This document shows, piece after piece, positions 11,360 through 61,845 of a stretch of DNA of 64,000 nucleotides. The stretch lies in the IMG/VR virus record IMGVR_UViG_3300033991_000293, positions 1-64,000 of that record. One strand, given 5' to 3'. The position numbers and the translations under genes are program-made. Positions within the stretch are counted from its first letter, which is position 1; each line of letters starts with the position of its first letter. Under the pieces are notes generated by a model. The model saw nothing but the letters and a program-made list of their open reading frames with translations. It was not told the origin of the DNA and searched no databases. This DNA comes from a virus.

Positions 11360-11742
11360 CAGGTGACCTCCACCATATCACGGAACGTGACCACGAAGTC
11401 CAGCACCCGACCTGCCGTGACCTCCTCCTCTTCAGGCCAGATCATGACCGCCTCGAACACCGTATACTCCTCAGTGTCATCCCGCTGTTTGGTTTGGATA
11501 TAGACCCTGGCTGATGCATTGGGGCAGAATTCCTTCAACTGGTCACGTTGTGCTAAAGACAGGAAACCCCATCGCCAGGTAGCAGATGGACGCCCGAACC
11601 CGCGAACAGTAAGATCGCCCAGGTCAACCTCGACCTGGTAACGCTTATAGGTTGACTTGGGAGCGAATACTGGGACCGTCAACTCCTCCACGTTGACCAT
11701 GCCCACTTCCGTCTCGCCGATCTCAAACTCGTACACCGCCAT
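11359..11742 (-). CDS. Small tail protein between tape measure and hub
   Basis: 127 residues, coupled on both sides (TAATG with the tape measure stop, TGATG with the hub start). Beta-rich (KRYQVEVDLGDLTVRGFGRP) with an acidic turn EEEEV. The size and place fit a distal tail protein or hub-assembly factor; no family recognised. Confidence 0.6.
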   Translation of the reverse strand: MAVYEFEIGETEVGMVNVEELTVPVFAPKSTYKRYQVEVDLGDLTVRGFGRPSATWRWGFLSLAQRDQLKEFCPNASARVYIQTKQRDDTEEYTVFEAVMIWPEEEEVTAGRVLDFVVTFRDMVEVT

Positions 11743-28953: not shown

Positions 28954-29643
28954 CTACAACGCCAATAACTCCTGAATGCGCGCATACAGCGCCGGTTTCC
29001 ACTTGCCGCTCTGAGCCACCAACCAACCTGGGCAATCTGTGCCATAGGTTTGTCCAGGTTGACTTTTGGGATAATCCTGGTGCCCGAGTATCTGAGCAGG
29101 GGATTTGACGAGGGGGAGCAGGGGGGATTTGATGGCCCAAACTGCCATCCGCGCAGCAGCATCTAACTGCAGTGCTGAAGGCGGATAGATTGCGCGATTG
29201 CCTGCCAATCCAACTGACAAGTCAAGATTCTCGTGACCCTGGTAATTGTGCCAAACCCCATCTTCCAGGTCACCGCACAGGAGAATCTCGCCCGTCTCGC
29301 TGATCCATACGGTATAGCACGTCGAGGGACGGCCACCTTCTTTCGTGATATACCATTTTGCGAAGTCTGCAGGGGATTGGGAAAGAGTGTGGTGAAAACA
29401 TAAGGTCTTGATGTCCTCGACCTGTCTGCGCCACCAGCCGTTTTTCAGCAGCCCTGGGCAGCCGGTTTTCTTGGGCATCAACGCACGGATATCCCGTGTC
29501 CAGGGGAAGGCAACCTCTTCTGGCTTGAAGCAATCTAGCCGCCTTTGTAATTCAGCCGCCATCACCTGGCTTGATATAACCGCTTGTTCGACGGTAACGA
29601 TCAGTGCTTGCACCTGGATTGGATCATACCCTGGATCGGTCAT
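28954..29643 (-). CDS. Endolysin: N-acetylmuramoyl-L-alanine amidase (PGRP/T7 lysozyme fold)
   Basis: 229 residues from ATG 29643; upstream the frame runs into a terminator hairpin. Zinc ligands are visible: H84/H85 (CFHHTLSQS), H188 (ILGHQDYP) and C204 (YGTDCPGW); Y110 (TCYTVWI) matches the catalytic region. The first 75 residues lack a recognised domain and may bind the wall. No signal peptide, so export would need the holin. It is the first gene of the leftward late block and follows a promoter, structured leader and terminator. Confidence 0.85.
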   Translation of the reverse strand: MTDPGYDPIQVQALIVTVEQAVISSQVMAAELQRRLDCFKPEEVAFPWTRDIRALMPKKTGCPGLLKNGWWRRQVEDIKTLCFHHTLSQSPADFAKWYITKEGGRPSTCYTVWISETGEILLCGDLEDGVWHNYQGHENLDLSVGLAGNRAIYPPSALQLDAAARMAVWAIKSPLLPLVKSPAQILGHQDYPKSQPGQTYGTDCPGWLVAQSGKWKPALYARIQELLAL

Positions 29644-29655
29644 TGTCTCCCTACA

Positions 29656-29695
29656 AATAAAAACACGGGCAACCGCTCGACGGTAGCCCGTGTTT
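29656..29695 (-). terminator. Intrinsic terminator between late leader and endolysin
   Basis: Minus strand: AAACACGGGC pairs with GCCCGTGTTT (10 bp), with inner ACCG/CGGT, then TTTTTATTTG. It ends about 12 bases before the endolysin start. Transcription from the promoter at 30114-30142 must pass it to reach lysis, capsid and tail genes. It is nearly symmetric and could also stop plus-strand readthrough. Confidence 0.8.
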
Positions 29696-30107
29696 CTCTG
29701 GTCCTGGGCCAGTCCCTGCACGTCGGCCAGTGGCCCGTGCAGGGACAGGTATAGATTTCTCTGGAGGGGCAGGAGTCAAACCCTGCAGTGGCCCTGATTC
29801 GACGTCGGCAGGATACTGACACCCTGCCCCTCCCACCTGGGCAGGTCAACCCCCCACCCGCTGTGGGTAGAAGACCCGCCAAAAAATGATAGCGTGTCTC
29901 GGCTATGGGCAGGGGAAGGAATCCGGCAGCCAACTGGAGTCCGGAAGGGAAATCGGCAGGCCGACTGGCGAGATTCCCCTCCCCTGCCACACCGCAGCAT
30001 CGGAACAAGAAGGAAAAGTGCTGGCCGGAGTCTGGGCCCGCACCCCTCCTCCGGCATGCGCCATTTTCCACGTAAACAGAGACCCAGGAGGGTTAATGGC
30101 ACATCTG
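29656..30107 (-). ncRNA. Structured late leader RNA (candidate antitermination or regulatory RNA)
   Basis: No coding frame holds here. The transcript from about 30107 would fold into several helices. GCCGGAG/CTCCGGC forms one near its 5' end. A long helix (GGCAGGGGA... with ...TCCCCTGCC, about 16 bp) closes a junction holding TCGGC/GCCGA-type and CCGG/CCGG hairpins. GGAGGGGCAGG/CCTGCCCCTCC (29763-29773 with 29823-29833) closes a 71-nt tRNA-sized domain. GTCCCTGCACG/CGTGCAGGGAC and the terminator follow. The layout is that of leaders through which phages control late transcription. It is not recognised as a known RNA family. Confidence 0.55.
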
Positions 30108-30142: not shown

Positions 30143-30525
30143 TTAGGACAAGAGTACCATCTGTGCAGGGGAGATTCGAGTCTGGCCAGTGGCCAGCGAA
30201 AAGGTCATACACCCGCAAGGGTGTATAAACTCGGGTAGCACTTTGGCTTTACAGCCATTCAGCGCGATGGTGGGTAGAGTCGAGCAGCCCAGGATGGGGT
30301 AAAGCCGTCAGGTAATGACTACACGAAACTACTGCCTTGACAAGTCAATTCGATAGGGTAACAGGGAATACAGGAAGTGGAGTGGGGTGGGGGAGCCTGC
30401 CATCCAAAGGGGGGAACTCTCCAGGCCGGCATCTGCAATCGCAATGCTCACCATAGCCCAATGTAGGGCATAATCATTTTCCAGGGAATTTTTAGGAGTT
30501 TCTTTACCAGTTATTAACCTTCGCA
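30143..30525. other. Gene-free stretch with small hairpins
   Basis: No convincing reading frame. It holds TACACCC-GCAA-GGGTGTA (about 30207-30225), a TGGCCA direct repeat, GGCT/AGCC and GCCC/GGGC hairpins, and TTGACAAGTCAA (30337-30348). It lies between the two divergent promoters, so it is probably the control region for both. Confidence 0.5.
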
Positions 30526-30534
30526 TGGTATACT
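30526..30534 (+). promoter_or_regulatory. Extended -10 promoter of the small-gene array
   Basis: TGGTATACT is an extended -10 (TG-n-TATACT). No good -35 box stands at the usual distance; TTTACC is 20 bp upstream. Transcription would start near 30541 and run right into the long leader. Confidence 0.5.
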
Positions 30535-30540
30535 TATAGA

Positions 30541-31033
30541 TAGTAGGATGGTACGCACGAAGGGGAAGCAGCCCCACCGGTAGCCTGGCAAAATAGAGGG
30601 AGCCCCCGCCCGCAGGGGGGAAACCTGACCAGAGTAGCACCAGAACAAACTAGCCGAGTAGAGCGAAGTAAGCCAAGACTAGGGACAAGCACCACGGGAA
30701 AAGGGGCAGGATGAACGGAGAAACCTGAACCCAGGGTGAGACTAACCGACGAGTAAGCCGAAAAGCGAAACTCAAAGCCAAAGCCCGACAGTGAAAATCT
30801 GGCATAGGGAGCGAGTCGAAACCTGGGAAGGTGAGACTGGCCGACGAAACGCAAGGTTGGTGAGAAACTCCTGGATCACAGCGAAAGCGAAAAGACCTGG
30901 CGGAGAAAAACAAGAGGGTTAAAAGGCAAAGGGTACTACCCCACCAGCAGCAGGCCAACAAGAGATTGACAGGTTGCTGGTGCAGCAGTACCGCACTGAA
31001 TGGATTCACATAACTCCACAGGAGGATTTGACG
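30541..31033 (+). ncRNA. Long purine-rich leader or ncRNA with ~100-nt repeats
   Basis: About 490 nt without a credible frame on either strand. Hairpins include GGGG-AAGCAG-CCCC and CCCCC-GCCCGCA-GGGGG. GAAACCTG recurs at 30620, 30720 and 30818, close to 100 nt apart, each time followed by a C-x-A/G-A-C-T..CCGA block; GGTGAGACT..CCGACGA is shared by the second and third units (30735 and 30830). Near its end CACCAGCA pairs with TGCTGGTG. The small-gene array starts directly after it. The length and ornate repeats recall large phage RNAs, but no named family is recognised. Confidence 0.5.
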
Positions 31034-31237
31034 ATGGACGAGCAGCAGAGAATCAAGGAACTGGAAGCCGCCCTGAGTGAACTGGAAAGCGCCTCGGTAA
31101 ACTTCGGTTTGGCAGTGATCGAAACGCTGAAGTTTGACCTTGCTGGCCAGGCTTACCTGCAGAAGGGTTACTTGCCCAACTTGACCCGCGCAGTTCGCAA
31201 GGCCCGCCTGACCCTGGGCCTGGATCATTCCGAATAG
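31034..31237 (+). CDS. Small helical protein, first of the hairpin-separated array
   Basis: 67 residues from ATG 31034 behind AGGAGG; the upstream ATG at 30974 lacks a ribosome site. Almost entirely helical: KELEAALSELESASVNFGLA then LTRAVRKARLTLGLD. Function unknown. It follows the long leader RNA. Confidence 0.6.
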   Translation: MDEQQRIKELEAALSELESASVNFGLAVIETLKFDLAGQAYLQKGYLPNLTRAVRKARLTLGLDHSE

Positions 31238-31243
31238 AATAAG

Positions 31244-31304
31244 GTAGGGGGAGAGTGAACTCCCCCCTTACCACTAGCCCAGGCCACCGCCTGGGTTAGT
31301 GGTA
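31244..31304 (+). repeat. Two-hairpin intergenic element 1
   Basis: First hairpin GGGGGAG/CTCCCCC around 31248-31267. Second hairpin with 16-bp arms 31269-31284 (TACCACTAGCCCAGGC) and 31289-31304, 4-nt loop. The arms touch at the TTACC junction, so both cannot form fully at once. A further GCCTGGCCAGGC/GCCTGGTCAGGC structure lies near 31450-31490, before the next gene. Confidence 0.65.
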
Positions 31305-31517
31305 GGGAGACACAGAATCCCTGGTGCAGGAGTAAGCCACGATAGCCCTGCACTGGATACCCTGAGCAAAGCACGAACCGACGTGCAAGGGTTTGCCTCA
31401 ACCCTGGACGGGCAAGGGGAGTGGGATTGGAGTCCACGAGATTGTGAGGGAGCCTGGCCAGGCCGAGTGGCCGAAAGCCTGGTCAGGCGATAGCAACCAA
31501 AACCCCAGGAGGATAAA

Positions 31518-31928
31518 ATGTACCCCGCAATTGACCTGAACAAAGTGATTGGCTTGACCGACGAGGAACGCGCTCTGGCAGCAGGTATCATCAACAAACA
31601 GACAGGTTGCCTGCGCGCAAGCAAGCCGAAGGTCACCTTCCGCCGTACAGGGAAGTATGACCAGTTTGGGAACGCAGAAGTCGATGCCGACCTCATAACG
31701 GAAGGCGGAGACACCGCCTACATTTGGCGCATGGTAGCCTTTTTCACGAGTAGCAACCGGCAGCACCAGTGCATGCCCTGCACTGCAGATTTTGACCTGA
31801 ACGGTAACACTGCCGAACGGATGGCACGCGCCAAGTACCTCGACACCATTGTCGACAGGATTGTGGACAGTATCCCAAAGAACGAGTGGCACGGTGTACG
31901 CCGTTGGGCCCATGCCTTTGGGTACTAG
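31518..31928 (+). CDS. Hypothetical protein of the small-gene array
   Basis: 136 residues, AGGAGG site. Mixed alpha/beta, opening with an ATG-TAC start and LTDEERALAAGIINKQTG, two Cys (QCMPC) near residue 92, and a basic helix near the end. No family recognised. Confidence 0.6.
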   Translation: MYPAIDLNKVIGLTDEERALAAGIINKQTGCLRASKPKVTFRRTGKYDQFGNAEVDADLITEGGDTAYIWRMVAFFTSSNRQHQCMPCTADFDLNGNTAERMARAKYLDTIVDRIVDSIPKNEWHGVRRWAHAFGY

Positions 31929-31939
31929 CAGAGACAGGA

Positions 31940-32032
31940 GGGGATGGTACCCATCCAGGAGGGTGGGACCAGCCATTACCATCCCCCCCTGCTGTAACCC
32001 CAAACCCACCCAGGGATTGGGGTTACAGCAGG
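31940..32032 (+). repeat. Two-hairpin intergenic element 2
   Basis: GGGGATGGT (31940-31948) pairs with ACCATCCCC (31978-31986); then CCTGCTGTAACCCCAA (31988-32003) pairs perfectly with its complement at 32017-32032. The tail reads CAGGGAACTG and a CCCTGC, as in other copies. Confidence 0.7.
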
Positions 32033-32081
32033 GAACTGCAAGCGAGTAAAGCCCTGCTAACATACCCCAGGAGGAAGTACA

Positions 32082-32570
32082 ATGAAAACCGTGATGATTC
32101 TCTTCCGGCATTTTGGCGAAGTTTGCTACACGCCCAAGTCCCCCACCCGCGAGTGGTTGGGTGATGCCGACGACGTAGACCTGACTGAGCAGAAGGATTG
32201 CATCCTCTCGAGTGATGATTTCAGGCCGGTCAAGGTGAACAAGTGGGATGTCCAGCCCGTGGAAGTCCCTGACTGGATGGAGGGTGACGACTACGCCGCT
32301 AACGCCTTCAAGTGGGAAAGCCTCTGGACAACCTCTGGAGCCAAGACCTTCCCCGAAGATTGGCAGGTTTACCTGGCGCTCTACGTCGACGAACCGAAAG
32401 AACGTCATGCCCTGGCCAAACTGCTCGCGGTCAAGAACTTCCGCTCGGAATTCCGCCAGAGTCTGCGTGACCAGGTAGTCGCCTTCATCGAGACCCCGCC
32501 CGACCAGCGCAAGTATGACAAGCCGTTATCCTGGAAGCAGATGAGTGCCCTTCTGCGATGGGAACGGTAG
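32082..32570 (+). CDS. Hypothetical protein of the small-gene array
   Basis: 162 residues, AGGAGG site. N-terminal strand (MKTVMILFRHFGEVCY), acidic middle, then a basic helical half (RHALAKLLAVKNFRSEFRQS) ending in a W-K-Q-M-S-A-L-L-R-W motif. No family recognised. Confidence 0.6.
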   Translation: MKTVMILFRHFGEVCYTPKSPTREWLGDADDVDLTEQKDCILSSDDFRPVKVNKWDVQPVEVPDWMEGDDYAANAFKWESLWTTSGAKTFPEDWQVYLALYVDEPKERHALAKLLAVKNFRSEFRQSLRDQVVAFIETPPDQRKYDKPLSWKQMSALLRWER

Positions 32571-32584
32571 CAACCGCCGACAGT

Positions 32585-32692
32585 GGAGGGGGGATGGCCA
32601 TACCATCCTCCCCTGCTGTATCTCCAGAACCTGCACGGTCACCCAGGAATTGCCCTGGCTGACCACCCCAGGCCCTGGAGATACAGCAGGGG
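32585..32692 (+). repeat. Two-hairpin intergenic element 3
   Basis: GGGGATGG/CCATCC(T)CCCC at 32590-32613, then a perfect 18-bp stem: CCCCTGCTGTATCTCCAG (32610-32627) with its complement at 32675-32692, loop of 47 nt. The two stems overlap at CCCC, so they compete. Confidence 0.7.
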
Positions 32693-32739
32693 AACAACTG
32701 AGCAGACCCTGCTAGATTCTACCCCAGGAGGAAAGTACA

Positions 32740-33453
32740 ATGAAAGCCCATTATTTCTACAATGTCACCGTTGACAACCCCGACAAGTATGCCAAGTATG
32801 CCCATCTGACGCTCGAGATTCGCAGCAGCACGAACAGCGGTCAGCCCCTGGCAACCTTAGCCTGGCAGTGCAACCGGATGGACGACACCAGCACCGCCCA
32901 GGAAGGGACCTGGTTGAAGGGATGGTCAGATTGGTATGGTTGCGACATTCGTGTCGAGGGACGGTCATTGAGTGACATCCAGGAGTCCGCAGCCGCCGTT
33001 CGTAGTGCATTGGGAAGCCAGGAGCCCTGGCAGATGCCCGATGTCGCTACAATTCTGCTGCGCTTGGCACGGAAGAAGGCCACCTTCACCGAAGTTCTGT
33101 ATGATGCCCGCCTGCATCAGTATGTGCCAATCGACGAACTCCAGCCGGAAGGGTATGAAGCCTGGCTGGATGACGCCAAAGCGATGGGCAGGTCATACCC
33201 GACTACATCGGTACTCGCTCGCCATCAGGATGAAGCGCAACGCAAGATGGTCATCGCCCTGGCTGAAGGCGGATATGATGCAGTCTTGGAGGAATTCGTG
33301 AAGGCAGGGAAACCCGTATACCGTAGTTACGAGAAAGCCCCTGCCGATCCTCGCCATGCCATCGCCCGCCTGGGCATCACCAAGTCGCCGCAGATGGATA
33401 TGGATCAGGCCATGCACATGCTCGACACCATCGCCGAGTCCATAGAGGAGTAG
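32740..33453 (+). CDS. Hypothetical protein of the small-gene array
   Basis: 237 residues, AGGAGG site; largest product of the array. N-terminal beta-rich half (HYFYNVTVDNPDKYAKYAHL, SDWYGCDIRVEGRSLSDIQE), C-terminal helical half with an acidic end. The opening resembles a sensor or binding domain, but no family is recognised. Confidence 0.6.
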   Translation: MKAHYFYNVTVDNPDKYAKYAHLTLEIRSSTNSGQPLATLAWQCNRMDDTSTAQEGTWLKGWSDWYGCDIRVEGRSLSDIQESAAAVRSALGSQEPWQMPDVATILLRLARKKATFTEVLYDARLHQYVPIDELQPEGYEAWLDDAKAMGRSYPTTSVLARHQDEAQRKMVIALAEGGYDAVLEEFVKAGKPVYRSYEKAPADPRHAIARLGITKSPQMDMDQAMHMLDTIAESIEE

Positions 33454-33474
33454 ATGCTCCTCCCACAGGTTGAG

Positions 33475-33542
33475 CAGGAGGGAACAGGAGCCCTCCTGCC
33501 CAACCAAAACCCCAGGTAACACAACCTGGGGTTTTGGTTGGG
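33475..33542 (+). repeat. Two-hairpin intergenic element 4
   Basis: CAGGAGGG/CCCTCCTG (33475-33482 with 33491-33498), then a perfect 19-bp stem with a 6-nt loop: CCCAACCAAAACCCCAGGT (33499-33517) and its complement (33524-33542). The second stem would be very stable in RNA; no T-run follows, so it is not a standard terminator. Confidence 0.7.
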
Positions 33543-33591
33543 ATATACCCAATCCGATTGATAAGTCAAGTCAGTAGCCCAGGAGGAAAGT

Positions 33592-33882
33592 ATGACCAGA
33601 CAGGAACTGATCCAGCGCATCAATGCAAGCGCAAGCGCCTTCCTCGGATTCCAAACTCAGATGGCCGGTCTGTCCAGCAAGAACAAAGCCCACCTCGAAG
33701 TGATGGCAACCGCCTACGAGAGAATGGTGGAACTCCGACAGAAAGCCGAAACAGTGCTCGGCCAGTATAGTAACATCGACAGGTTGGGATGGGATTTCTA
33801 TCCGGAGCAGAAACCGGAAGAAGTCACAATCGCTGAACAATTGGCCAAGCAAGCCCTCACGATATGGGACACCAGATTCTAA
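33592..33882 (+). CDS. Small helical protein of the array
   Basis: 96 residues, AGGAGG site. Helical throughout (QELIQRINASASAFLGFQTQ, EVMATAYERMVELRQKAETV). No family recognised. Only 17 bases separate it from the next gene, with no hairpin, so these two are directly coupled. Confidence 0.6.
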   Translation: MTRQELIQRINASASAFLGFQTQMAGLSSKNKAHLEVMATAYERMVELRQKAETVLGQYSNIDRLGWDFYPEQKPEEVTIAEQLAKQALTIWDTRF

Positions 33883-33899
33883 TCCAGGAGGATTACACA

Positions 33900-34331
33900 A
33901 TGAAAGATCATACGTTCATCTGGCCAGCAGGGACATTGGCCCGCTGTAACAGGGGATGCCCGAACGCGCAGCCCCTGCTCCGCGAAGTCGAAGCCCTGGT
34001 GACCAACAAGCGCCATGCTCGCATCGCCGAACCCATCATGCTGGACTGCGGTCATCTGGATTGGCATGACATCTATCGCGCCGACAACGTCGAGCAGACC
34101 TGGCCTGTGGACCCCGCCCCTAACATTCTCATCGCCGATGGGTACGCCGCCTTCCAGACTGACTACTGGAAGGTCACCAACGACAGTGGGGAATTTTGGG
34201 GCGAAGTGATGGCCATCAACCTGGCTGATGCCCGATACCAGTTTGAGGAACGCCTCAAGCAGCAGCAGAATTATGATGGCCTCGACCTGCTCCGCCAGGG
34301 GGGATTCACCTTCAAGATTCACCAATATTGA
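33900..34331 (+). CDS. Hypothetical protein of the array
   Basis: 143 residues from ATG 33900 behind AGGAGG. It has C-N-R-G-C near the N-terminus, L-D-C-G-H-L-D-W in the middle, and a helix (INLADARYQFEERLKQQQNY). The segment from VTNDSGEFWGEV to that helix loosely resembles VDTDDNVLATIE..NVKRAETRLSEWL in the product of 34836. Function unknown. Confidence 0.6.
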   Translation: MKDHTFIWPAGTLARCNRGCPNAQPLLREVEALVTNKRHARIAEPIMLDCGHLDWHDIYRADNVEQTWPVDPAPNILIADGYAAFQTDYWKVTNDSGEFWGEVMAINLADARYQFEERLKQQQNYDGLDLLRQGGFTFKIHQY

Positions 34332-34343
34332 CCGCCCAGGGTA

Positions 34344-34418
34344 GGGGGGATGGCCACCGCACCATCTCCCCTGCTGTATCTCCAGAACCTGCGCCCAGGC
34401 CCTGGAGATACAGCAGGG
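34344..34418 (+). repeat. Two-hairpin intergenic element 5
   Basis: GGGGGGATGG (34344-34353) with CCATCTCCCC (34362-34371), then CCCTGCTGTATCTCCAG (34369-34385) with its exact complement (34402-34418). The second stem has the same sequence as in element 3. Confidence 0.7.
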
Positions 34419-34457
34419 AACTGACCCTGCGCAAACTATAGACAGGAGGAAAAGCCA

Positions 34458-34688
34458 ATGGTCACCTATCAGGAACGCCAAGTGTTTATAGTCCACGTCA
34501 TCCAGCGCAAAACACGGTACTCGCCTGCGGTAGAACCACCAGCCGAAGTCGAAGTGCAGTTTGTGAATGACGACGGCTCCCTCATCCAGGGGGAACGGCC
34601 TCGCTTGGTACTCGTCACCGAACTGGATGAGACTATCGAGGGTGAGATTCAACTCAACGTTGACACCGCCGATGTCGTGCAAGGATGA
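34458..34688 (+). CDS. Small hypothetical protein of the array
   Basis: 76 residues, AGGAGG site. Beta-rich and acidic (QVFIVHVIQRKTRYSPAVEP, TIEGEIQLNVDTADVV). No family recognised. Confidence 0.6.
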   Translation: MVTYQERQVFIVHVIQRKTRYSPAVEPPAEVEVQFVNDDGSLIQGERPRLVLVTELDETIEGEIQLNVDTADVVQG

Positions 34689-34696
34689 AGGACAGG

Positions 34697-34761
34697 CAGG
34701 GGGGATGGCCAGCATCCCCCCTGCGGTAGACCCAGGTCAACCGACCTGGGTCTACCGCAGG
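34697..34761 (+). repeat. Two-hairpin intergenic element 6
   Basis: CAGGGGGGATG/CATCCCCCCTG (34697-34707 with 34713-34723) and a perfect 19-bp stem with a tetraloop: CCTGCGGTAGACCCAGGTC (34720-34738) with 34743-34761. The stems share CCTG, so they exclude each other. Element copy 2 of the GAAGTT promoter family follows immediately. Confidence 0.75.
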
Positions 34762-34768
34762 GAAAATA

Positions 34769-34800
34769 CCTGAAGTTTTGCCTGCGAGTTTCGTTATACT
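34769..34800 (+). promoter_or_regulatory. Copy 2 of the repeated GAAGTT/AACTTC promoter-like element
   Basis: CCTGAAGTTTT, then AGTTTCGTTATACT: the right arm differs from AACTTC, but spacing and TTATACT are kept. It restarts transcription inside the small-gene array, before the gene at 34836. Confidence 0.6.
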
Positions 34801-34835
34801 GGTACGCAGCATCTTATAGACAGGAGGAACAAAAA

Positions 34836-35327
34836 GTGGATGAGATACAGATTGGTGCATGGTTTCTGTTCGTAGGCGAGAATCCCGCTTACCTCAAGGA
34901 TCAGCCGGTTTTGCTCTGCGGAGTCCGCAAGGCATGGGCCAACGAGGATTCTGACGAAGCAGACATCCGCCACGACGTCAACCTCGCCAAAGTGGGGGGG
35001 ATGGAAGTGGGCGACCGCGCATTTATCAAGATGTGGCTCCAGGCGAAACAGCGCCCTTCTTGGATCGAAGATGAATGTGCAGCCAGTGACCTGCAGCCCC
35101 TGCCGCAGGAACAGTGGCCCGACCGGAACCCGCAACCACTGATCACCTACCACGCTGTGGATACCGACGACAACGTCTTGGCAACCATCGAAGCCTACAA
35201 CGTCAAGCGCGCCGAGACCCGCCTGTCGGAGTGGTTGCTCATGCCCGACAAGCGTCCGCAGTATGCAGCCTGGGCAAAGGCAAACTATAAGATTCAGCCC
35301 ATGCCTGCATGCGACTGCGCAGTCTAG
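34836..35327 (+). CDS. Hypothetical protein of the array
   Basis: 163 residues starting at GTG 34836 behind AGGAGGA. Beta-rich N-terminal half (IGAWFLFVGENPAYLKDQPV), then a helix region ending AWAKANYKIQPM and C-D-C at the end. The middle shows weak likeness to the product of 33900. Function unknown. Confidence 0.6.
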   Translation: MDEIQIGAWFLFVGENPAYLKDQPVLLCGVRKAWANEDSDEADIRHDVNLAKVGGMEVGDRAFIKMWLQAKQRPSWIEDECAASDLQPLPQEQWPDRNPQPLITYHAVDTDDNVLATIEAYNVKRAETRLSEWLLMPDKRPQYAAWAKANYKIQPMPACDCAV

Positions 35328-35334
35328 CAGCCCA

Positions 35335-35406
35335 GGGGGAGAATGCCCCGCGCAGTATTCTCCCCCTGCGGTAGACCCAGGTCAGCCGACCTGAGTCTAC
35401 CGCAGG
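35335..35406 (+). repeat. Two-hairpin intergenic element 7
   Basis: GGGGGAGAAT/ATTCTCCCCC (35335-35344 with 35357-35366), then CCTGCGGTAGACCCAGGTC (35365-35383) with 35388-35406; one base change in the right arm relative to element 6 gives an A-C mismatch. Confidence 0.7.
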
Positions 35407-35449
35407 GAACCTGAACCCTGCACGATACCATATCCCAGGAGGAATAAGC

Positions 35450-36082
35450 ATGTGTAATCAAACTGTCCACATTGGCCCCGTGATCTATTTCACGGGCAAC
35501 TTCGCCCGCGCTCGCATCGTCCGCCAGGATGTCAAGGGCAGGCCAATCTGCATCGAATTGGTGACCGCCAGTGGTCAGGCGATGGTCACTGAGTATGATG
35601 AGGAAGCCATGACCCTGTGGGATTTCCTGTGCAGGGATAGCATCGATGGCTCTGCCATCCTGCTGCATCATCAGGCAGAGACACAGGCCGAATTCGACGA
35701 GATAGTCCGCGACGAAGCAGCGCAGGAACATCCGCCCCTCGGCCAGCGCGATCACTATACCGCCGACGACGTCATTACCTACTTCCAGGTCAGCCGTGCG
35801 CTTGATAAGGTTAACCGTGAAGTCGATACGCTGATCAGTGAGGAATGGGTTACACCCACCGAACTGAAGGTCTGGAGTGTAGTCGCCCACGCCCTGGGTG
35901 ATGCCAGCGATCGCATCAAGATTGTCGACTGGGACCGCGACCGTGTCGAAGTTCATCGTTTCGCAGGGGAAACTCCACATGGTCATTGGCAGGAGTGGAT
36001 GCCTGATCAGGAAGCAGCCGACCTGGTTGCCACCGCTCTCAATGACGCCGCATACCAGAAGGCTTACTGGGCCGACGATTGA
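35450..36082 (+). CDS. Hypothetical protein of the array
   Basis: 210 residues, AGGAGG site. N-terminal beta part (VIYFTGNFARARIVRQDV), acidic middle, then TADDVITYFQVSRALDKVNR and a C-terminal strand-helix region. No family recognised. Confidence 0.6.
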   Translation: MCNQTVHIGPVIYFTGNFARARIVRQDVKGRPICIELVTASGQAMVTEYDEEAMTLWDFLCRDSIDGSAILLHHQAETQAEFDEIVRDEAAQEHPPLGQRDHYTADDVITYFQVSRALDKVNREVDTLISEEWVTPTELKVWSVVAHALGDASDRIKIVDWDRDRVEVHRFAGETPHGHWQEWMPDQEAADLVATALNDAAYQKAYWADD

Positions 36083-36093
36083 GCCAGCACAGG

Positions 36094-36158
36094 CAGGGGG
36101 GATGGCCAGCATCCCCCCTGCGGTAGACCCAGGTCAGCCGACCTGAGTCTACCGCAGG
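36094..36158 (+). repeat. Two-hairpin intergenic element 8
   Basis: CAGGGGGGATG/CATCCCCCCTG (36094-36104 with 36110-36120) and CCTGCGGTAGACCCAGGTC (36117-36135) with 36140-36158. Nearly identical to elements 6 and 7, including the following GGGAACTGACCCTGC. Confidence 0.7.
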
Positions 36159-36198
36159 GAACTGACCCTGCACGATATCAGTCCAGGAGGAAAATACC

Positions 36199-36543
36199 AT
36201 GAAACCGATTGAAGTCGAAGCCTTACTCGCCCCCTACTTCAAGAAGAAGATAGGGCAGAAGGTCTGCCGGAGAGTCCGCACGGCCAATGATCTGGCCTTC
36301 CAGGTTTGGGCCCGTGACTATCAGGCCGAAGTCCTGGCGGTAGATGGTAATACCGCCTACGTGCAACTGACGTCGATTGACCTGGCACCATCGGAGAGCC
36401 ATCGCGCAGGAAGTGACCGTGTGCTTGGGGATTACCAGATTGACTTGACCGGCATGGCCGGTCTAGACCCATTCTGGCGGAAACTCCTGGGGTTTGCCGA
36501 CCCGCAGTGGGCGAAACTCATCACCCCGTCAGGCAACATCTAG
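36199..36543 (+). CDS. Hypothetical protein of the array
   Basis: 114 residues, AGGAGG site. Begins with a helix (IEVEALLAPYFKKKIGQKVC) then strands (AEVLAVDGNTAYVQLTSIDL). No family recognised. Only 10 bases separate it from the next gene. Confidence 0.6.
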   Translation: MKPIEVEALLAPYFKKKIGQKVCRRVRTANDLAFQVWARDYQAEVLAVDGNTAYVQLTSIDLAPSESHRAGSDRVLGDYQIDLTGMAGLDPFWRKLLGFADPQWAKLITPSGNI

Positions 36544-36553
36544 GAGGAAACCC

Positions 36554-37075
36554 ATGATTACCATTGCCGATCTACTGGATGCGCTCAAGGACATTGAGTG
36601 CACGGCCACCCACTTTGCCCTGGCAGTGGCGACACAAGGAAGCAGGCCCGCCAATGCAGGAACAAGTCAGCCGGTCATTGATGAACAGCGCAAGCGCCTC
36701 GACGACCTGTTGGTCAGCCTGAATACCAAAGTCCGCCCCTGCCTGGATGAAGCGCAGCAGCAGCCGCCTTTCGATGTCATCGCCGCCCTGGAGTGGGCGA
36801 CTAACCGCCTCGCCGCTGTGATCACCACCATGCCCGATGCCACCGAGTATTATGATCGTACCTGCCTGGCCAAAGCCCTGGAAGTACTCACGCATGCCAA
36901 GCATACCAGGGACACCAACTTGCTGGCAGCCGCCCGCGCAGCCCTGGCCCTGTGGGATAAGTATGGCCTGGGGGATGAGGATAGTGAGTCAGAACCTGTC
37001 TATCATATCCTCAAGGACGCTGTGGAGGGTTATGACTATTCGCGCTCGAAGCACGACAGGCCCTGCCCCTTCTAG
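36554..37075 (+). CDS. Helical hypothetical protein of the array
   Basis: 173 residues from ATG 36554, whose AGGAGG overlaps the previous stop. Mostly helical (LLDALKDIECTATHFALAVA, ALEWATNRLAAVITTM). The first part recalls the product of 31034 (both read as short ALKDIE/ELESA helices followed by FGLAV or FALAV), possibly a distant relation. Function unknown. Confidence 0.6.
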   Translation: MITIADLLDALKDIECTATHFALAVATQGSRPANAGTSQPVIDEQRKRLDDLLVSLNTKVRPCLDEAQQQPPFDVIAALEWATNRLAAVITTMPDATEYYDRTCLAKALEVLTHAKHTRDTNLLAAARAALALWDKYGLGDEDSESEPVYHILKDAVEGYDYSRSKHDRPCPF

Positions 37076-37340
37076 CGCCCAGGCCGGCACCACCATACCT
37101 GGGGGAAATGAGGAATCCCCCAGGTATGGCCTGGGGAATATCATTACCTTCCGTCTGCACGACGGCAGACTGGTCACCGGAGAAATCAGTACCATGAATC
37201 AGGATGCCAGTGAACCTCAGTATCACGTCAGGATCGAACACGATTCAATGTACTCCAGTGGCTATTGGGTATGGGAACAGGAAGTGGTCAGCCAGGGAGT
37301 GCAACTTTCCCTCTTTCCGCCAGATGCAGATGTGCTATAA
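37032..37340 (+). CDS. Last small protein of the array, start uncertain
   Basis: 102 residues if ATG 37032 (GGAGGG just before it) is used; this overlaps the gene before it by 44 bases and puts a strong hairpin (37093-37129) inside the frame. The credible part begins near NIITFRLHDGRLVTGEI, a small beta barrel-like pattern, and ends LSLFPPDADVL. The true start may be a non-ATG codon after the hairpin. Confidence 0.45.
   Translation: MTIRARSTTGPAPSSAQAGTTIPGGNEESPRYGLGNIITFRLHDGRLVTGEISTMNQDASEPQYHVRIEHDSMYSSGYWVWEQEVVSQGVQLSLFPPDADVL
37093..37129 (+). repeat. Hairpin element 9 (single stem)
   Basis: CCATACCTGGGGGA (37093-37106) pairs perfectly with TCCCCCAGGTATGG (37116-37129). It stands where the other array genes have their hairpin elements, before the last gene. 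Confidence 0.6.
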
Positions 37341-37377
37341 ACAATCCCCCCACCCAAGATGGGTGGGGGGATTGTTT
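37339..37377. terminator. Two-way terminator between array and packaging genes
   Basis: Perfect 18-bp stem with a 3-nt loop: AAACAATCCCCCCACCCA (37339-37356) and its complement (37360-37377), with A-run and T-run edges on both strands. It stops the rightward array and, from the other side, the leftward packaging operon. A second stem (CTCCCCCAC/GTGGGGGAG, 37396-37417) backs it up. Confidence 0.8.
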
Positions 37378-37438
37378 GCGTCCCTGCGACCCGATCTCCC
37401 CCACCGATGTGGGGGAGCCAATGTGGTACAATGGAGGG

Positions 37439-37657
37439 TTACTCAGCCGGCACCGCCTCCGCCCCCTGTTCTTCACGAACCAGCAACACGCCCCTCGGCT
37501 CCAGCGCCGCCTGGATCACCGCCCAGGTCAGGATACCATCGCCACCGGTCTTACCTTTGATGACCACGACGATGTGCAGCCCGGGCCCCAGGCCCGCCAG
37601 GCGATTCAGTATGTCGTTCAGGGGGGAGCCAGGTTTGCCCTGCCGGTCATTGTTCAT
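37439..37657 (-). CDS. Small hypothetical protein after the portal
   Basis: 72 residues from ATG 37657, which overlaps the portal stop as ATGA. Alternating strands (GLHIVVVIKGKTGG, RGVLLVREEQ). Last gene of the packaging operon. Function unknown. Confidence 0.5.
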   Translation of the reverse strand: MNNDRQGKPGSPLNDILNRLAGLGPGLHIVVVIKGKTGGDGILTWAVIQAALEPRGVLLVREEQGAEAVPAE

Positions 37658-39882
37658 AGCCAAACCCAGGCCCCATTTGTCAATCGTTCAAGGTGACATC
37701 GGCATCGACCGTTACATTCGGTCCCCTGGCCAGGTAGGATACCGCCAGTGAAGGCGATCAGCGCATCGATAGATGTGTATTCGCGCCCAGGGGGATTTGC
37801 CCCAAAGATGGGACACATTCGGCAGTGTTTGGCAATGACGTCCAGTACCCATCGCACGGGCGATGGGTATCCTTGTTCCAAATCATCCAGCCGCCCGCGC
37901 TCAATGGCGCCTGACCAAATCGAGTGCCAGACCTCGCCCGCGTATAACTCCGCCCGTGCAAACCCCTGCGTAGCCGCCTCGACCGCCTGGTGCACCAGAA
38001 TCCATGCCTCGTCCTCGCGCCCCGCTTTGAGCAATAGCAGGATCGCCGCGATCTGTCCTTCCAATTCCCCTTTGATGTCCCCGAATAGACTTGACTTACC
38101 AGCCGGATTGGTTACAGCCAGGCGACCATCGCCCCCGTACCCAATCCAGGCATCTGCCCTCGCGATCTCCGACCGCAACGCCTGCTGGATTCTGGCATCC
38201 CCTGTTGGGGGACCGAACCCCAACCAGAATGCAGCAGCCAAATCTAAGGCAGACTTTTCACGAAACAGCAGGAGCCCCACCAGGAGCAAATCGTCCAACT
38301 TGCTGCGCAGAGTCACCTCGTCCACGCCAGTCCCCAGGCCCGCCACTTCAGTGGACAGTTGATCAGCCCAGGCCGAGAGATTCTGCCTCTGTGCCTCGGC
38401 ATTGGCATCGACGAAAGCCACGTACCGCGCAGGCCGATCTTCAGGGGCAGCAGGCCCAAAATGCTCAGCGCCTCGCGCCAGGAATTGCTCGCGCCGCCTG
38501 ACCGGCACCCGTATCCTCGAGTATCCCTCGCTCTCCGTACCTGGCTCTCCCTCGCCGCTTTCAGGTTTGGGTTGCTCTTCCTCAGCGCCACCCGCCCGCC
38601 GACCTTCATCATTGCCTTCATCACCGACCGGCTCCTCCTCTTCCTCTGGCGCCTCGGGCATCCCCGGCACCTGCGCCCGCAGGAAATTCTCAGTGGGCAT
38701 GTCCATCGAGAAAGCCCCGGCACCAGATAGTGCAGTGATATACTGCCCAAGTCTCTGTAAATCCAGTGCCCTGGGTGATGTATGTGTCAGAGTGGGGTAG
38801 CCGGTCAGCCCTGGCCAGGGATTGAAACTGAACAGGTAGGGGATGGCATAGCGATTCAACTCGTCAGTGATGATCTGCAGGTATGCCTCGACCGCCAGCG
38901 CGAAAGATTCCTGGAGGGTTTGCGCCAGGGAACGAGTCCCTACCTCGCGCAGGCCCAGAAGGAGCCATTGGGCCAGAATCGACCTGGCCATTTCTGAATC
39001 CTTGCGTATAATCGTGTCCGACATCGTCCGATCAATCGTTCCCTCCGGACCCCCTAATTCCAAGTCCCAGGAGTGGGGGATGTATGACCCCATCATCCTG
39101 TCCTCGTAGATGGCCTGGACTAATTCCTGCGCCCGCTGTTCGTCTGATACCTCACCCTCTGCTACCTCAGCCCTCGCAGTCGCCCCATCTGGCAGTTTGA
39201 GCAGGGGGAAGCCTGCCCATCGCCGGTACAGGCCGATACCCTCGATCTGTTCCAGTCGCCGCTTGTATTTGTATGGCCGAACGGCAGGCCGGAAGATCGA
39301 CAGGCCCTCCGGATTGTCTCCCTCCCTCGACGTCCGAAACAGCAGAGATTCATTCAGGGGGATAAAGATGACATTGCCCGTTTTGATCTGGTACTGCCAC
39401 AAACCCAGGATGTCGCCCGATTCCTCGTCAAACTCCCAGTGATCCAGGGTAAGTGGAGACCGGAAGGCAATCTTCCGAAAGCCGATTAAATCGTCGTCGA
39501 ACTGGCTCTTGTTTTTGCCCTTCTGGCCTCTGCGTCTCTTCATGACCATGTGGAAGTAAGTCCACCCATAGACAAACATCAGGCAGGCATCGGCGATCAG
39601 GTCATTGAATGAGTGGGATGTGTCGCTGAAGGCCGACCATGCAAAAGTGGCAGCCTCTTCATCCCGCGCAGAAGGCCCGCCAGGCAGACAACTCCACTGC
39701 ACGCGCCGGATTGGGAGCGTTAGGACGAGATACATCGCAATCCCTGTCGGATCTTGCGTCCGGATCTCGTCGAAAACCCGATAGCCCAATTGCCCGCGCA
39801 GAGTAACGTCCGGCTCCACCATGACGACCCCGCCCCACTGCTGCAAGCCAGTGGAGCCCAACTCTTTAAATGGTGATGACAT
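37654..39882 (-). CDS. Portal protein fused to a MuF-like C-terminal domain
   Basis: 742 residues. Residues about 1-400 are a portal: GYRVFDEIRTQDPTGIAMYL, clip and stem regions, FIPLNESLLFRTSREGDNPE, and IRKDSEMARSILAQWLLLGL. An acidic Glu/Gly-rich linker (about 415-470: PEAPEEEEEPVGDEGNDEGR) follows. Residues about 480-742 are helical and end in a MuF-type Cys cluster: HCRMCPIFGAN, then TECNGRCRCHLERL. Portals and MuF head proteins are normally separate, adjacent genes; here they are one chain. Confidence 0.8.
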   Translation of the reverse strand: MSSPFKELGSTGLQQWGGVVMVEPDVTLRGQLGYRVFDEIRTQDPTGIAMYLVLTLPIRRVQWSCLPGGPSARDEEAATFAWSAFSDTSHSFNDLIADACLMFVYGWTYFHMVMKRRRGQKGKNKSQFDDDLIGFRKIAFRSPLTLDHWEFDEESGDILGLWQYQIKTGNVIFIPLNESLLFRTSREGDNPEGLSIFRPAVRPYKYKRRLEQIEGIGLYRRWAGFPLLKLPDGATARAEVAEGEVSDEQRAQELVQAIYEDRMMGSYIPHSWDLELGGPEGTIDRTMSDTIIRKDSEMARSILAQWLLLGLREVGTRSLAQTLQESFALAVEAYLQIITDELNRYAIPYLFSFNPWPGLTGYPTLTHTSPRALDLQRLGQYITALSGAGAFSMDMPTENFLRAQVPGMPEAPEEEEEPVGDEGNDEGRRAGGAEEEQPKPESGEGEPGTESEGYSRIRVPVRRREQFLARGAEHFGPAAPEDRPARYVAFVDANAEAQRQNLSAWADQLSTEVAGLGTGVDEVTLRSKLDDLLLVGLLLFREKSALDLAAAFWLGFGPPTGDARIQQALRSEIARADAWIGYGGDGRLAVTNPAGKSSLFGDIKGELEGQIAAILLLLKAGREDEAWILVHQAVEAATQGFARAELYAGEVWHSIWSGAIERGRLDDLEQGYPSPVRWVLDVIAKHCRMCPIFGANPPGREYTSIDALIAFTGGILPGQGTECNGRCRCHLERLTNGAWVWL

Positions 39883-39891
39883 AGCAACCTC

Positions 39892-41643
39892 CTAATTCCA
39901 GACTGAAGATTCTAATTTGAGTTTGGACTGATCTGGTAGGGGCGATGGATGAGGAAGTGTCCAGGCAACGCAACAATAGTTCTCAGCATGGGCAAAGTGA
40001 TCTGCCCCCGCCGAGATATACACTGCAACTGTCCTGCCGACGTGGTCCTCCAGGATGCGTATCATACTCTTTAGGTGAGCATAATAGTCAGGGATGCCAC
40101 GCGCATGGCAGGGGAGTGAGAAAGTTGTCTGCGCCGGCTCCAGCCCACCAGTGGCAGCCGCCAACAACCGCGCATACATTTCATCGATTGTCCGTGTCCG
40201 ATCTAAATCGAGGAAGCCTTCCTCTAAATTTAGTCTGACAGGCTCTTCGATCTTCAGGCCGGTCTTTTGCGTCACGTAATAGGCCCGCCAGATTCGCCCA
40301 GGGGGAAATGAATCCTGAAAGCGCCTGGCCTCCCGCGTTTCTGGCAATGCATCGACCACACAAACTTCGCAGTTGTACAGCCGCATCAGTTGGGCCACGT
40401 CCGCAAACTCCGCGACTGCACCTGCGTACCGCTGTGGGTAATCCCCCGTCTCGGATTGTGCAGGCCCACGGATGATCACGTGCAGCAAGTCGCCGACGTC
40501 TACGCCCATCCGGCACCGCTCGCCCACCACAGGCCCATGCGAGTATGCCCGTGTCGCCGCATCGAGGATATCGTCGGTCAATTGCCCGCCCCTGGGGATG
40601 TATGGCTCTCCCCAGTCCTGATTGGTAGCCTCCCGCCTGGCCGTCTCGTCCACCGCCTGGAGCCCTTGCAGCATCGCCCCGACGTCAGCCAGGGGCGAGA
40701 ATAACTTCGAAAGATGATAGCCGACCGGCAGCCGCCCAGGATAGGCCGGCACCCATTCTCCCTGCGCAAGCCGCTTTAGTCTGCCACCGCATTTCCGACA
40801 GGCAGGCCAGGCCGCCCCCGTCTCCATGCCGTACCAGCCAACAGGCCGACCCAGGGAGTCCTCCTCCAGGATGACCGACGATCTGTCCATGTACTGCCGC
40901 TCGCCACAGTGTGGGCAGGCCACGAACCATTCACGCTGATCCGACCTCTCCCATAGGGCATGGATGCCAATCCCTCGATAGGTGGGAGTGCTCACTGTAC
41001 GCTCCTCGGCCAGCATCGAGTGGCCGAGTCGTTTACGAGCGATCTCAGGAGCCCGCGAATCCATCTCATCCAACTCATCCAGCAGCAGGATGTCAGCCGC
41101 GATCGCTTTCAGTTGGGGAGCCAGGCCATCGGGCGATACCTTGGCCCCCCGAAAGTACAGGAAGCGGTCACGGATTCTCTTTAACCGAACACGATCAGCC
41201 CCCCGTGATCGCCCACCAGCATCGACCACGATTGAAGTCAGATATGGACTGGCCTCGATTGCAGGCCCGACCCGACCGGAAGAAAAGTCAGAAAGGTGTA
41301 CATCAGTGGGAAAGACGTATAGCACGGTAGCCGCCCGTTGATCAGCCCCGTGCAGTGCATAGGAGACCAGATATTCTGAAGCGCCCATTTGTGAACTTTT
41401 GTAGATGATCATCCAGGGGGAAGTTTCTTGGTAGATTGGAATCAGATAGTGATGGGACACAAAGTCGAGGGGTTGACCTGGCACGAGGAACGGGCGATGT
41501 TTGATTGTCCACGATAGCAAGTCCTCCGGTAGGGATACCCTGCGCAGTGCCGCCAACACCGCCACTTTGCGATCTACTGACCACAACGTGAAATGACCGC
41601 TCAGCAGGTCATCCAGGATGCCAGGCCCGACCCCGATTGTCAT
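39892..41643 (-). CDS. Terminase large subunit (GpA-like)
   Basis: 583 residues, ATGA overlap with the gene before it. The ATPase half has a deviant Walker A (IIYKSSQMGASEYLV, about 79-93) as in lambda gpA relatives, and Walker B with catalytic acid ILLLDELDEM (about 186-195). A zinc ribbon follows (CPHCGERQ near 243, CRKCGG near 283). The nuclease half opens with MGVDVGDLLHVII (about 378) and has CVVDALPET later. It packages DNA through the portal encoded next. Confidence 0.85.
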   Translation of the reverse strand: MTIGVGPGILDDLLSGHFTLWSVDRKVAVLAALRRVSLPEDLLSWTIKHRPFLVPGQPLDFVSHHYLIPIYQETSPWMIIYKSSQMGASEYLVSYALHGADQRAATVLYVFPTDVHLSDFSSGRVGPAIEASPYLTSIVVDAGGRSRGADRVRLKRIRDRFLYFRGAKVSPDGLAPQLKAIAADILLLDELDEMDSRAPEIARKRLGHSMLAEERTVSTPTYRGIGIHALWERSDQREWFVACPHCGERQYMDRSSVILEEDSLGRPVGWYGMETGAAWPACRKCGGRLKRLAQGEWVPAYPGRLPVGYHLSKLFSPLADVGAMLQGLQAVDETARREATNQDWGEPYIPRGGQLTDDILDAATRAYSHGPVVGERCRMGVDVGDLLHVIIRGPAQSETGDYPQRYAGAVAEFADVAQLMRLYNCEVCVVDALPETREARRFQDSFPPGRIWRAYYVTQKTGLKIEEPVRLNLEEGFLDLDRTRTIDEMYARLLAAATGGLEPAQTTFSLPCHARGIPDYYAHLKSMIRILEDHVGRTVAVYISAGADHFAHAENYCCVAWTLPHPSPLPDQSKLKLESSVWN

Positions 41644-44946: not shown

Positions 44947-45766
44947 AGAAACCCCCTTTTACCATTGCCAGGCCGACCAGCCACGTGATCACAGTCAGCC
45001 CAATCAGTACCCAGGCCCGCTCGCGCCGATAGATGAAAGCCAATACCGGCACCAAGTGGTAAATCAGGAGATACGGCGATGTGAGCAGGCCAAGCGCCAA
45101 CCATTCAGCCTGGCCCATTGGGCCAGCACCCACCAGCAGGATCGCCCCGACAATCCCGACCTGGCTGATGCTGTGGGAAGTTTGCCAGTTTACCGCTTGG
45201 GTAGAGACCGGCACCCTGGCAGGCCAAAAACCCCAAACCAGAAAAGAACACAGTGTCACCGCCACCACCGGCAGGAACATCCGGACCCCGCCCCGCCAGG
45301 CCCTGGCCAATGCCCACCAGCACAGGATGTGTGGTTTGCAGGCCACCAATAGCAATGACCACTGTGGAGGAAGCAGGAAGGCCAGGGGCAGGAACACATC
45401 GATCTGGCCATAGTGCAGCGCCGCCAGCACCGGCATGGACAGTGCCAGCAGCAACACGCGCCACCAATCACGGCAGTAGACCGCAAGGACTGCAAAGCCC
45501 AGGGAGATAAAAACCCCGTAGCCTACAAGGGGGGGAAGAATTGCGATGGGATGAAGCAGCACAAATAGCCAGGGGGGATAACACGCCCAGGCAAAGCGAT
45601 ATGGATCGTCGAGGGGATGGAGTGCAGCAGGCCGGAAGTACCGCATCCAATCTGAATCTGCGATGTCTCCAGGAGCCAGTGATGCCCCGAAGATGGCCAC
45701 CAGCAGGAAGGCCACCAGAACAGCCGCCATACCGACTGCACGACTGGCCTGGATTTTAGGCATCAT
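44918..45766 (-). CDS. Polytopic membrane protein, DUF2029/GT-C glycosyltransferase-like
   Basis: 282 residues from ATG 45766, which overlaps the previous stop; ATG 45778 or 45763 are also possible. About eight hydrophobic segments. The first loop has D-W-M-R-Y-F-R-P-A-A and the second region F-A-W-A-C-Y-P-P-W-L-F-V-L-L-H-P, as in DUF2029/GT87 mannosyltransferases that use lipid-linked sugars. It is shorter than typical members (near 400). In a phage it might alter the host surface and block superinfection; this is inference. Confidence 0.6.
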   Translation of the reverse strand: MMPKIQASRAVGMAAVLVAFLLVAIFGASLAPGDIADSDWMRYFRPAALHPLDDPYRFAWACYPPWLFVLLHPIAILPPLVGYGVFISLGFAVLAVYCRDWWRVLLLALSMPVLAALHYGQIDVFLPLAFLLPPQWSLLLVACKPHILCWWALARAWRGGVRMFLPVVAVTLCSFLVWGFWPARVPVSTQAVNWQTSHSISQVGIVGAILLVGAGPMGQAEWLALGLLTSPYLLIYHLVPVLAFIYRRERAWVLIGLTVITWLVGLAMVKGGFYESKYWSIF

Positions 45767-61811: not shown

Positions 61812-61845
61812 AGGATGGGCCCGGGCCCCTGCCCAGGCCCATCCT
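61812..61845 (+). terminator. Hairpin after the AAA ATPase gene
   Basis: AGGATGGGCC pairs with GGCCCATCCT (10 bp) around a GC-rich loop; no strong T-run, so a weak terminator or processing site. Confidence 0.5.

Follow-up and report, generated by a model that had tools for sequence, protein, structure and literature searches.

Results

A rightward operon of small genes with tandem hairpins in its gaps

The DNA analysed here, referred to as the window, comprises the 64,000 nucleotides at positions 1 to 64,000 of the IMG/VR record IMGVR_UViG_3300033991_000293, that is, most of this 64,705-base record of a tailed phage, and it contains a rightward operon of about 11 small genes (31034-37075) flanked by leftward portal and leftward endolysin-like genes. 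Eight gaps between these genes carry the same element, a hairpin A followed directly by a long hairpin B, whose 3' arm can also pair with a segment further downstream as hairpin C. Two relatives identified by terminase and portal scans of IMG/VR have the same array, namely L005 (IMGVR_UViG_3300032046_005782; terminase 77%, portal 80% identity) and L095 (IMGVR_UViG_3300035134_000090; portal 62% identity), and the array is known from these three genomes only. The genes, all on the plus strand, are g0 (31034-31237; a small ORFan with 64-66% identity in L005, where it is duplicated), g1 (31518-31928), g2 (32082-32570), g3 (32740-33453), g4 (33592-33882), g5 (33900-34331), g6 (34458-34688), g7 (34836-35327), g8 (35450-36082), g9 (36199-36543) and g10 (36554-37075). 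None of the array proteins matched Pfam or PADLOC, and among PHROGs only g2 found a match, a weak one to a PHROG of unknown function; the structure model of g2 was confident, and structure comparison gave no named match.

The elements, likewise on the plus strand, follow g0, g1, g2, g3, g5, g6, g7 and g8, while the gaps g4-g5 (17 nt) and g9-g10 (10-11 nt) are free of them. After g0, hairpins A (31243-31272) and B (31266-31307; CCTTACC...GGTAGGG) have the base CTTACC in common, and B shows three two-sided compensatory changes relative to L005. The g1 gap contains A (31935-31991), B (31987-32033) and C (32027-32058; AGCAGGG:CCCTGCT), and the g2 gap A (32588-32612), a B with a long, branched loop (32609-32693) and C (32686-32713). 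After g3, A (33468-33505; GGTTGAGCAGGAGGG/CCCTCCTGCCCAACC) is followed by B (33499-33542; CCCAACC...GGTTGGG, a family also found in L005 and L095) and C (33538-33552; TTGGG:CCCAA). The g5 gap has A at 34341-34374, B at 34369-34418 and C at 34413-34430 (GCAGGG:CCCTGC). In the g6 gap, CCCTGC is common to A (34696-34724) and B (34719-34762; 20 perfect bp), with C (CGCAGG:CCTGCG) at 34756-34786; in the g7 gap, CCCTG is common to A (35333-35368) and B (35364-35407), with C at 35402-35421 (GCAGGG:CCCTGC); and in the g8 gap, CCCTGC is again common to A (36093-36121) and B (36116-36159), with C at 36154-36171 (GCAGGG:CCCTGC). A minus-strand 'tRNA' call at 35355-35445 proved to be the B hairpin of the g7 gap. 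All elements sit downstream of a stop codon and ahead of the following ribosome-binding site, in a fixed order with respect to the reading direction, and their geometry is constant, B starting 23-58 nt past the stop codon and typically ending 17-38 nt ahead of the Shine-Dalgarno sequence. The original observation of eight gaps with A followed by B was confirmed; B, noted there with 16-19 bp, has arms of 17-25 nt.

The stems exceed chance and are confined to one operon

When stems were scored with +1 per match and -3 per mismatch, the best stem of each window gap with an element reached 12-20, whereas 480 dinucleotide-shuffled window gaps averaged about 1 and did not exceed 11, and the highest score across 1500 shuffles of all three genomes was 12. 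Outside the array elements, perfect-like stems scoring at least 14 in the window were limited to the operon-end hairpin (37339-37377), a single hairpin after g10 that is unlike the A-B design (37093-37129) and a stem at 960-991, and in the window gaps longer than 60 nt elsewhere (rough gene call) no stem of at least 11 was found except in the convergent-gene gap 61812-61845. Comparable stems beyond the operon being only the operon-end hairpin and 960-991, the window lacks the scatter typical of repetitive extragenic palindromic (REP) sequences or bacterial interspersed mosaic elements (BIME). Mobile palindromes scattered without position preference find no support, as the elements of the window occur only between genes of one operon. 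At the gathering threshold Rfam gave no match in the window, and the matches below threshold were mostly eukaryotic microRNA precursors, which points to generic hairpins.

Four segments and two alternative folds

Each element can be written as 1-Acore-2-Bcore-3-loop-4, in which 1:2 pairing lengthens A, 2:3 pairing forms the base of the long hairpin B and 3:4 pairing gives hairpin C. Competition between A and B is limited to bases of 4-7 bp and the upper parts of both hairpins form together, so that the proposal that only one of the two can form goes too far. The base overlap is also found with unrelated stem sequences (CTTACC in the g0 gap, CCCAACC in the g3 gap), and among the 25 copies of the three genomes the B base belongs to the CCCTGC family in 14, to CCTTACC or CCCTACC in 8 and to CCCAACC in 3. 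Segment 4 is CCCTGC or CCCAA in the window and CCCTAC, CCCAAC or CCTGC in L095, and its partner is segment 3 within the same gap. It corresponds to the trailing CCCTGC that had been noted as able to pair with either hairpin; pairing with the 3' arm of B is what we find, and pairing with segment 1 is restricted to some copies.

The best 3:4 helices within the own gap sum to 132 bp, compared with 85 +/- 4 for shuffled downstream sequences and 112 +/- 4.4 when downstream sequences were permuted among gaps, where none of 20,000 permutations reached the native value; permutation within each genome gave p = 0.017, 0.062 and 0.036 for this gap-specificity. The 1:2 pairing is weaker, with 126 bp compared with 113 +/- 4 on permutation among gaps (34 of 20,000 reaching it). 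Two folds result: fold I combines the long A, a short B and C, and fold II has the long B, often with a 1:4 helix closing a three-way junction. Their comparison is based on predicted energies only, which differ by at most 3.1 kcal/mol in 20 of the 25 copies; a predicted value of at most +3 kcal/mol was obtained for 80% with the native 35-nt downstream sequence, but for 27% with shuffled and 41% with foreign-family downstream sequences. After simulated cuts in B, most copies refold into the long A upstream and C downstream.

Elements in related phages

A-B elements occupy nine gaps in L005 and eight in L095 (one of the latter, Qg6, being irregular), and the stems are kept even though the identity of the array proteins is down to 39-73% for L005 and 30-46% for L095. 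Hence the expectation that geometry and competing pairing are retained while the sequence families differ is borne out by both relatives. A more distant phage, L096 (IMGVR_UViG_3300022666_000342; portal 52%), has a small-gene operon at the same genomic position, with a simple single hairpin per gap and no U tract at 12500-17400 (GGGCCGGC...GCCGGCCC in four gaps and a related hairpin in a fifth). Among 82 compared loci longer than 5 kb, the dense array of long stems was seen only in contig pieces of L005 and in L095, and L007 (terminase 52%) showed no such stems in the part of its contig examined.

Searches of viral contigs with the single proteins g8 and g3 returned no relatives, and alignments of g2 and g10 recovered L005 only, while the portal alignment recovered L095 and L096. 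No relative was found in bacterial genome contigs (g2 and portal alignments) or, at the DNA level, among annotated phages and plasmids. A DNA pattern for B led, beyond L005, to four unrelated phages with single, chance-like hairpins, which were rejected (L086 was not read separately). Two unrelated phages, L089 (1458-1502) and L091 (2350-2390), have in common a CCCTGCGGTAGAGAG...CTACCGCAGGG hairpin adjoining homologous genes, probably a coincidental terminator. The same palindromes were thus absent from the collections searched except in relatives; within a genome, however, copies are homogenised as in concerted evolution, with the window gaps g6-g8 nearly identical and four L005 copies alike, and such copies are not independent.

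In each of the three genomes it is the CCCAACC family that follows g3, whichever gene comes next (g4, g5 or g7), indicating that the element travels with the preceding gene. Relative to the window, L005 has g0 and g1 in exchanged positions, each together with its downstream hairpin; in L095 the order of g6 and g7 is reversed, and units of gene plus hairpin have been gained or lost among the three genomes. At 12696-12720 of L095, the stop codon of an 85-aa gene seems to fall within the hairpin A loop (TGA, flanked by GGAGGGAG and CTCCCTCC), which would make coding sequence and element overlap there.

Compensatory changes in the stems

An ungapped alignment of 23 B stems over 17 pairs had 96.5% of its cells paired, compared with 78.1% in shuffles and 32-51% when the alignment was slid. 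Two-sided changes affected 11 of the 17 pairs, with 64 such cells compared with 16.2 in shuffles. Comparison of gaps in related phages for compensatory changes, which had been put forward as a check, gave the same picture, since window and L005 differ in their orthologous gaps by 16 double compensatory changes and 3 single changes that keep the pairing, with 6 pairs broken. Taken over the three phages and several sequence families, the pairings of the element are thus maintained by compensatory change.

Further features of the operon and the genome

A probable extended -10 promoter (TGG-TATACT; TGGTATACT) precedes the operon on the plus strand, with its TATACT at 30529-30534 aligned in both relatives (TGGTATGAT in L005, GCAGTATAAT in L095); a -35/-10 scan had missed it. 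It is followed on the same strand by a U-poor non-coding leader of about 490 nt (30545-31030; 10.5% T), conserved strongly in L005, with long identical stretches, and weakly in L095, which ends in a conserved CACCAGCAGCAG...CTGCTGGTG hairpin and is a candidate structured or protein-binding RNA to which no family could be assigned. The sequence TTGACAAGTCAA lies upstream of the promoter (30338-30349) and recurs in the g3-g4 gap of L005, and TTGATAAGTCAA is found in the g3-g4 gap of the window (33560-33571); an operator or a mini-hairpin is possible for these sites. The gap before g7 (34762-34835) includes a promoter-like CTGAAGTTTT...TTATACT, the corresponding gaps having GTATAAG in L005 (15957-16023) and TTTATATAGTAG in L095 (11762-11860), and g7 may therefore have its own promoter.

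Downstream of g10, a frame at 37076-37341 (GNIITFRLHDG...) lacks an evident start codon or Shine-Dalgarno sequence, overlaps g10 in another frame and stays open across the hairpin at 37093-37129, seemingly as in L005; a frameshift, bypass or non-standard start may be involved. The operon-end hairpin, which has a U tract, is probably a bidirectional terminator. Elsewhere in the window lie the leftward genes for the portal (37654-39882), the terminase large subunit (39892-41643), the tape measure (11742-17891) and the endolysin-like protein (28954-29721), and a single 482-aa protein (45756-47204) with PHROG matches to both ParB-like partition proteins and DNA methyltransferases, as in a fusion.

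Discussion

An RNA switch and a processing site had both been suggested for these gaps; both are possible and we prefer processing. In this tentative reading, to which we give somewhat less than an even chance, each element is a cis-acting RNA processing or protection element in the 3' untranslated region of the preceding gene, with B probably cut by host RNase III. A host enzyme of the RNase III type, acting on double-stranded RNA, would recognise the B helix in the polycistronic mRNA; after the cut, the freed segment 2 would complete A, capping the upstream message at its new 3' end, and the freed segment 3 would pair with segment 4 to form C, capping the downstream message at its new 5' end. 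Such a 'cut and cap' would provide each small gene with its own stable message from a single promoter, and even without cutting the same hairpins could act as exonuclease barriers insulating each cistron. We infer the cutting, the nuclease and the benefit alike, and the strand that acts is not proven. With about two turns, B has the length typical of RNase III substrates, and its 17-25 bp, stacked on A in all eight gaps, make it a long intercistronic helix of the kind found at T7-type sites. The hairpins without U tract in five small-gene gaps of the distant L096, different in sequence, also speak for this reading, and the fixed order relative to transcription together with the confinement to one operon argues for action as RNA.

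Several observations weigh against the processing reading. Several copies (Rg2, Rg6, Qg6) have a weak hairpin C, some lack the pairing of segment 1, and a search at the sensitivity of PF14622 detected no phage-encoded RNase III. Sense-strand A-C combinations (34 cells) outnumber G-U pairs (12 cells), with 7 G-U and 11 A-C cells in A stems and 5 and 23 in B stems; independent events are fewer, by a rough count about 10 G-U and about 16 A-C, and the sense strand gains no support from them. One-sided changes of the G-U type are likewise rare, with 4 cells compared with 64 two-sided ones, a pattern that an RNA helix evolving via G-U should not show. It could be explained by template-switch repair of the palindromes, or by action on the DNA or the other strand. 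Template-switch repair yields two-sided changes without one-sided intermediates (PMC8794818) and can thus mimic covariation, so that the covariation demonstrates that pairing is maintained, but not by itself selection on RNA. A role as sites for sequence-specific DNA binding is unlikely, since one and the same genome has unrelated stem sequences that pair alike.

The closest known counterparts are the RNase III sites in the early and late polycistronic mRNA of T7, double-stranded RNA elements between small phage genes that divide the transcript into mono- and dicistronic messages (PMC4858673). Both are double-stranded elements between the small genes of a phage polycistronic mRNA; the element of the window differs in its tandem of hairpins, its fourth segment, its two nearly equal folds and its presence in nearly every gap, and has no sequence relation to the T7 sites; its cleavage is a proposal. 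The rpsO-pnp intergenic hairpin of E. coli and Streptomyces is also intercistronic and cut by RNase III (PMC10126417), but is a single cellular autoregulatory site instead of an array and has an internal loop with defined cut sites. The extended start-associated sequences (ESAS) of cluster K mycobacteriophages are 17-bp inverted repeats before the starts of small non-structural genes, with a subcluster-dependent consensus; RNA pairing finds no support in the differences between their arms, and DNA-binding sites were favoured by the authors (PMC3203893). In the window, by contrast, pairing is backed by compensatory change and several stem families occur within one genome; moreover, no consensus of the GGGATAGGAGCCC start-associated sequence (SAS), which adjoins the inverted repeat in cluster K, was seen by inspection, the Shine-Dalgarno regions being CCAGGAGGA or ACAGGAGGA. 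The cluster O mycobacteriophage Corndog has many 17-bp palindromes per genome, partly intergenic (PMC4351075), but with invariant 7-bp arms, also within genes and without fixed orientation, which fits a DNA-binding protein. We rate the element as a variant of intercistronic phage RNA elements that matches no Rfam family, with a specific but hypothetical mechanism; no description of such a four-segment array was found in the literature searched.

Two other functions at the RNA level appear unlikely, though not negligible, and to a similar degree. One is a bistable, attenuator-like switch in which upstream translation, a bound factor or cutting would choose between fold I (1:2 + 3:4) and fold II (2:3 + 1:4) and so tune the next gene, the array being a set of distributed bistable devices. 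Trp-type attenuators are built on mutually exclusive 1:2, 2:3 and 3:4 pairings, and the window element has such alternative helices; its two folds have nearly equal predicted energies, its segments show mutual covariation, and segment 1 or A begins just past the stop codon and could be masked there by a ribosome at termination. However, the window element has no leader peptide and is repeated in eight gaps, and none of A, B and C is followed by the U tract that would make a GC-rich hairpin on the transcribed strand an intrinsic terminator arm. Near-identical copies after different genes make gene-specific sensing unlikely, and the resemblance between segments 1 and 3 accounts in part for the similar energies. 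Pairing of segment 4 with the Shine-Dalgarno sequence (CCTG:CAGG, or CCCTG) was rejected as a general sequestering device, since it breaks down in the CCCTAC copies of L095. The other possibility, no better supported in our estimate, is that of plain stabilisers of mRNA 3' ends or insulators of cistrons, REP-like in effect, with neither an endonuclease cut nor functional switching. A hairpin after most genes or gene pairs, including the simple ones of L096, and the constant family after g3 would be expected of them, but the conserved fourth segment and the bases common to A and B would be left unexplained.

DNA palindromes serving as cassette boundaries, at which recombination gains, loses or reorders small genes in an attC-like manner, are improbable in our view, although the gene-order changes (g0/g1 with their hairpins, g6/g7) leave some room for a role in cassette exchange. 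Two order changes and the unit gains and losses, observed across three genomes only, together with the homogenised copies and the few G-U pairs, are in line with it. On the other hand, the A-B-C order is fixed with respect to transcription, several unrelated stem sequences occur in one genome, element-free gene pairs exist, and the reordering may result from ordinary homologous recombination, as a consequence rather than a function; no tyrosine recombinase (PF00589), the class of the integron enzyme IntI that serves attC arrays, was found in the 64.7-kb record, a partial test, as such an enzyme could act in trans. Partial or U-less terminators grading expression along the operon, one of the original suggestions, are very improbable despite the GC-rich, very stable hairpins after genes, because a scan of 30300-37600 gave no sense-strand terminator-like site in the array and separate hairpins with a U tract close the operon in all three genomes.

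For the biology of these phages, the processing reading and its rivals bear on a general question, as arrays of tiny genes of unknown function are common in phages and the route by which each is expressed individually from one transcript is poorly understood. The 25 copies in three genomes form a clean natural series, on which the cut-or-switch hypothesis could be tested with reporters. The excess of two-sided over one-sided changes, as predicted for template-switch repair, makes the array a test case for the upkeep of long perfect stems as well. If the elements were distributed bistable devices, they would set the expression of each gene post-transcriptionally from one promoter, which would be a new architecture for a phage operon.

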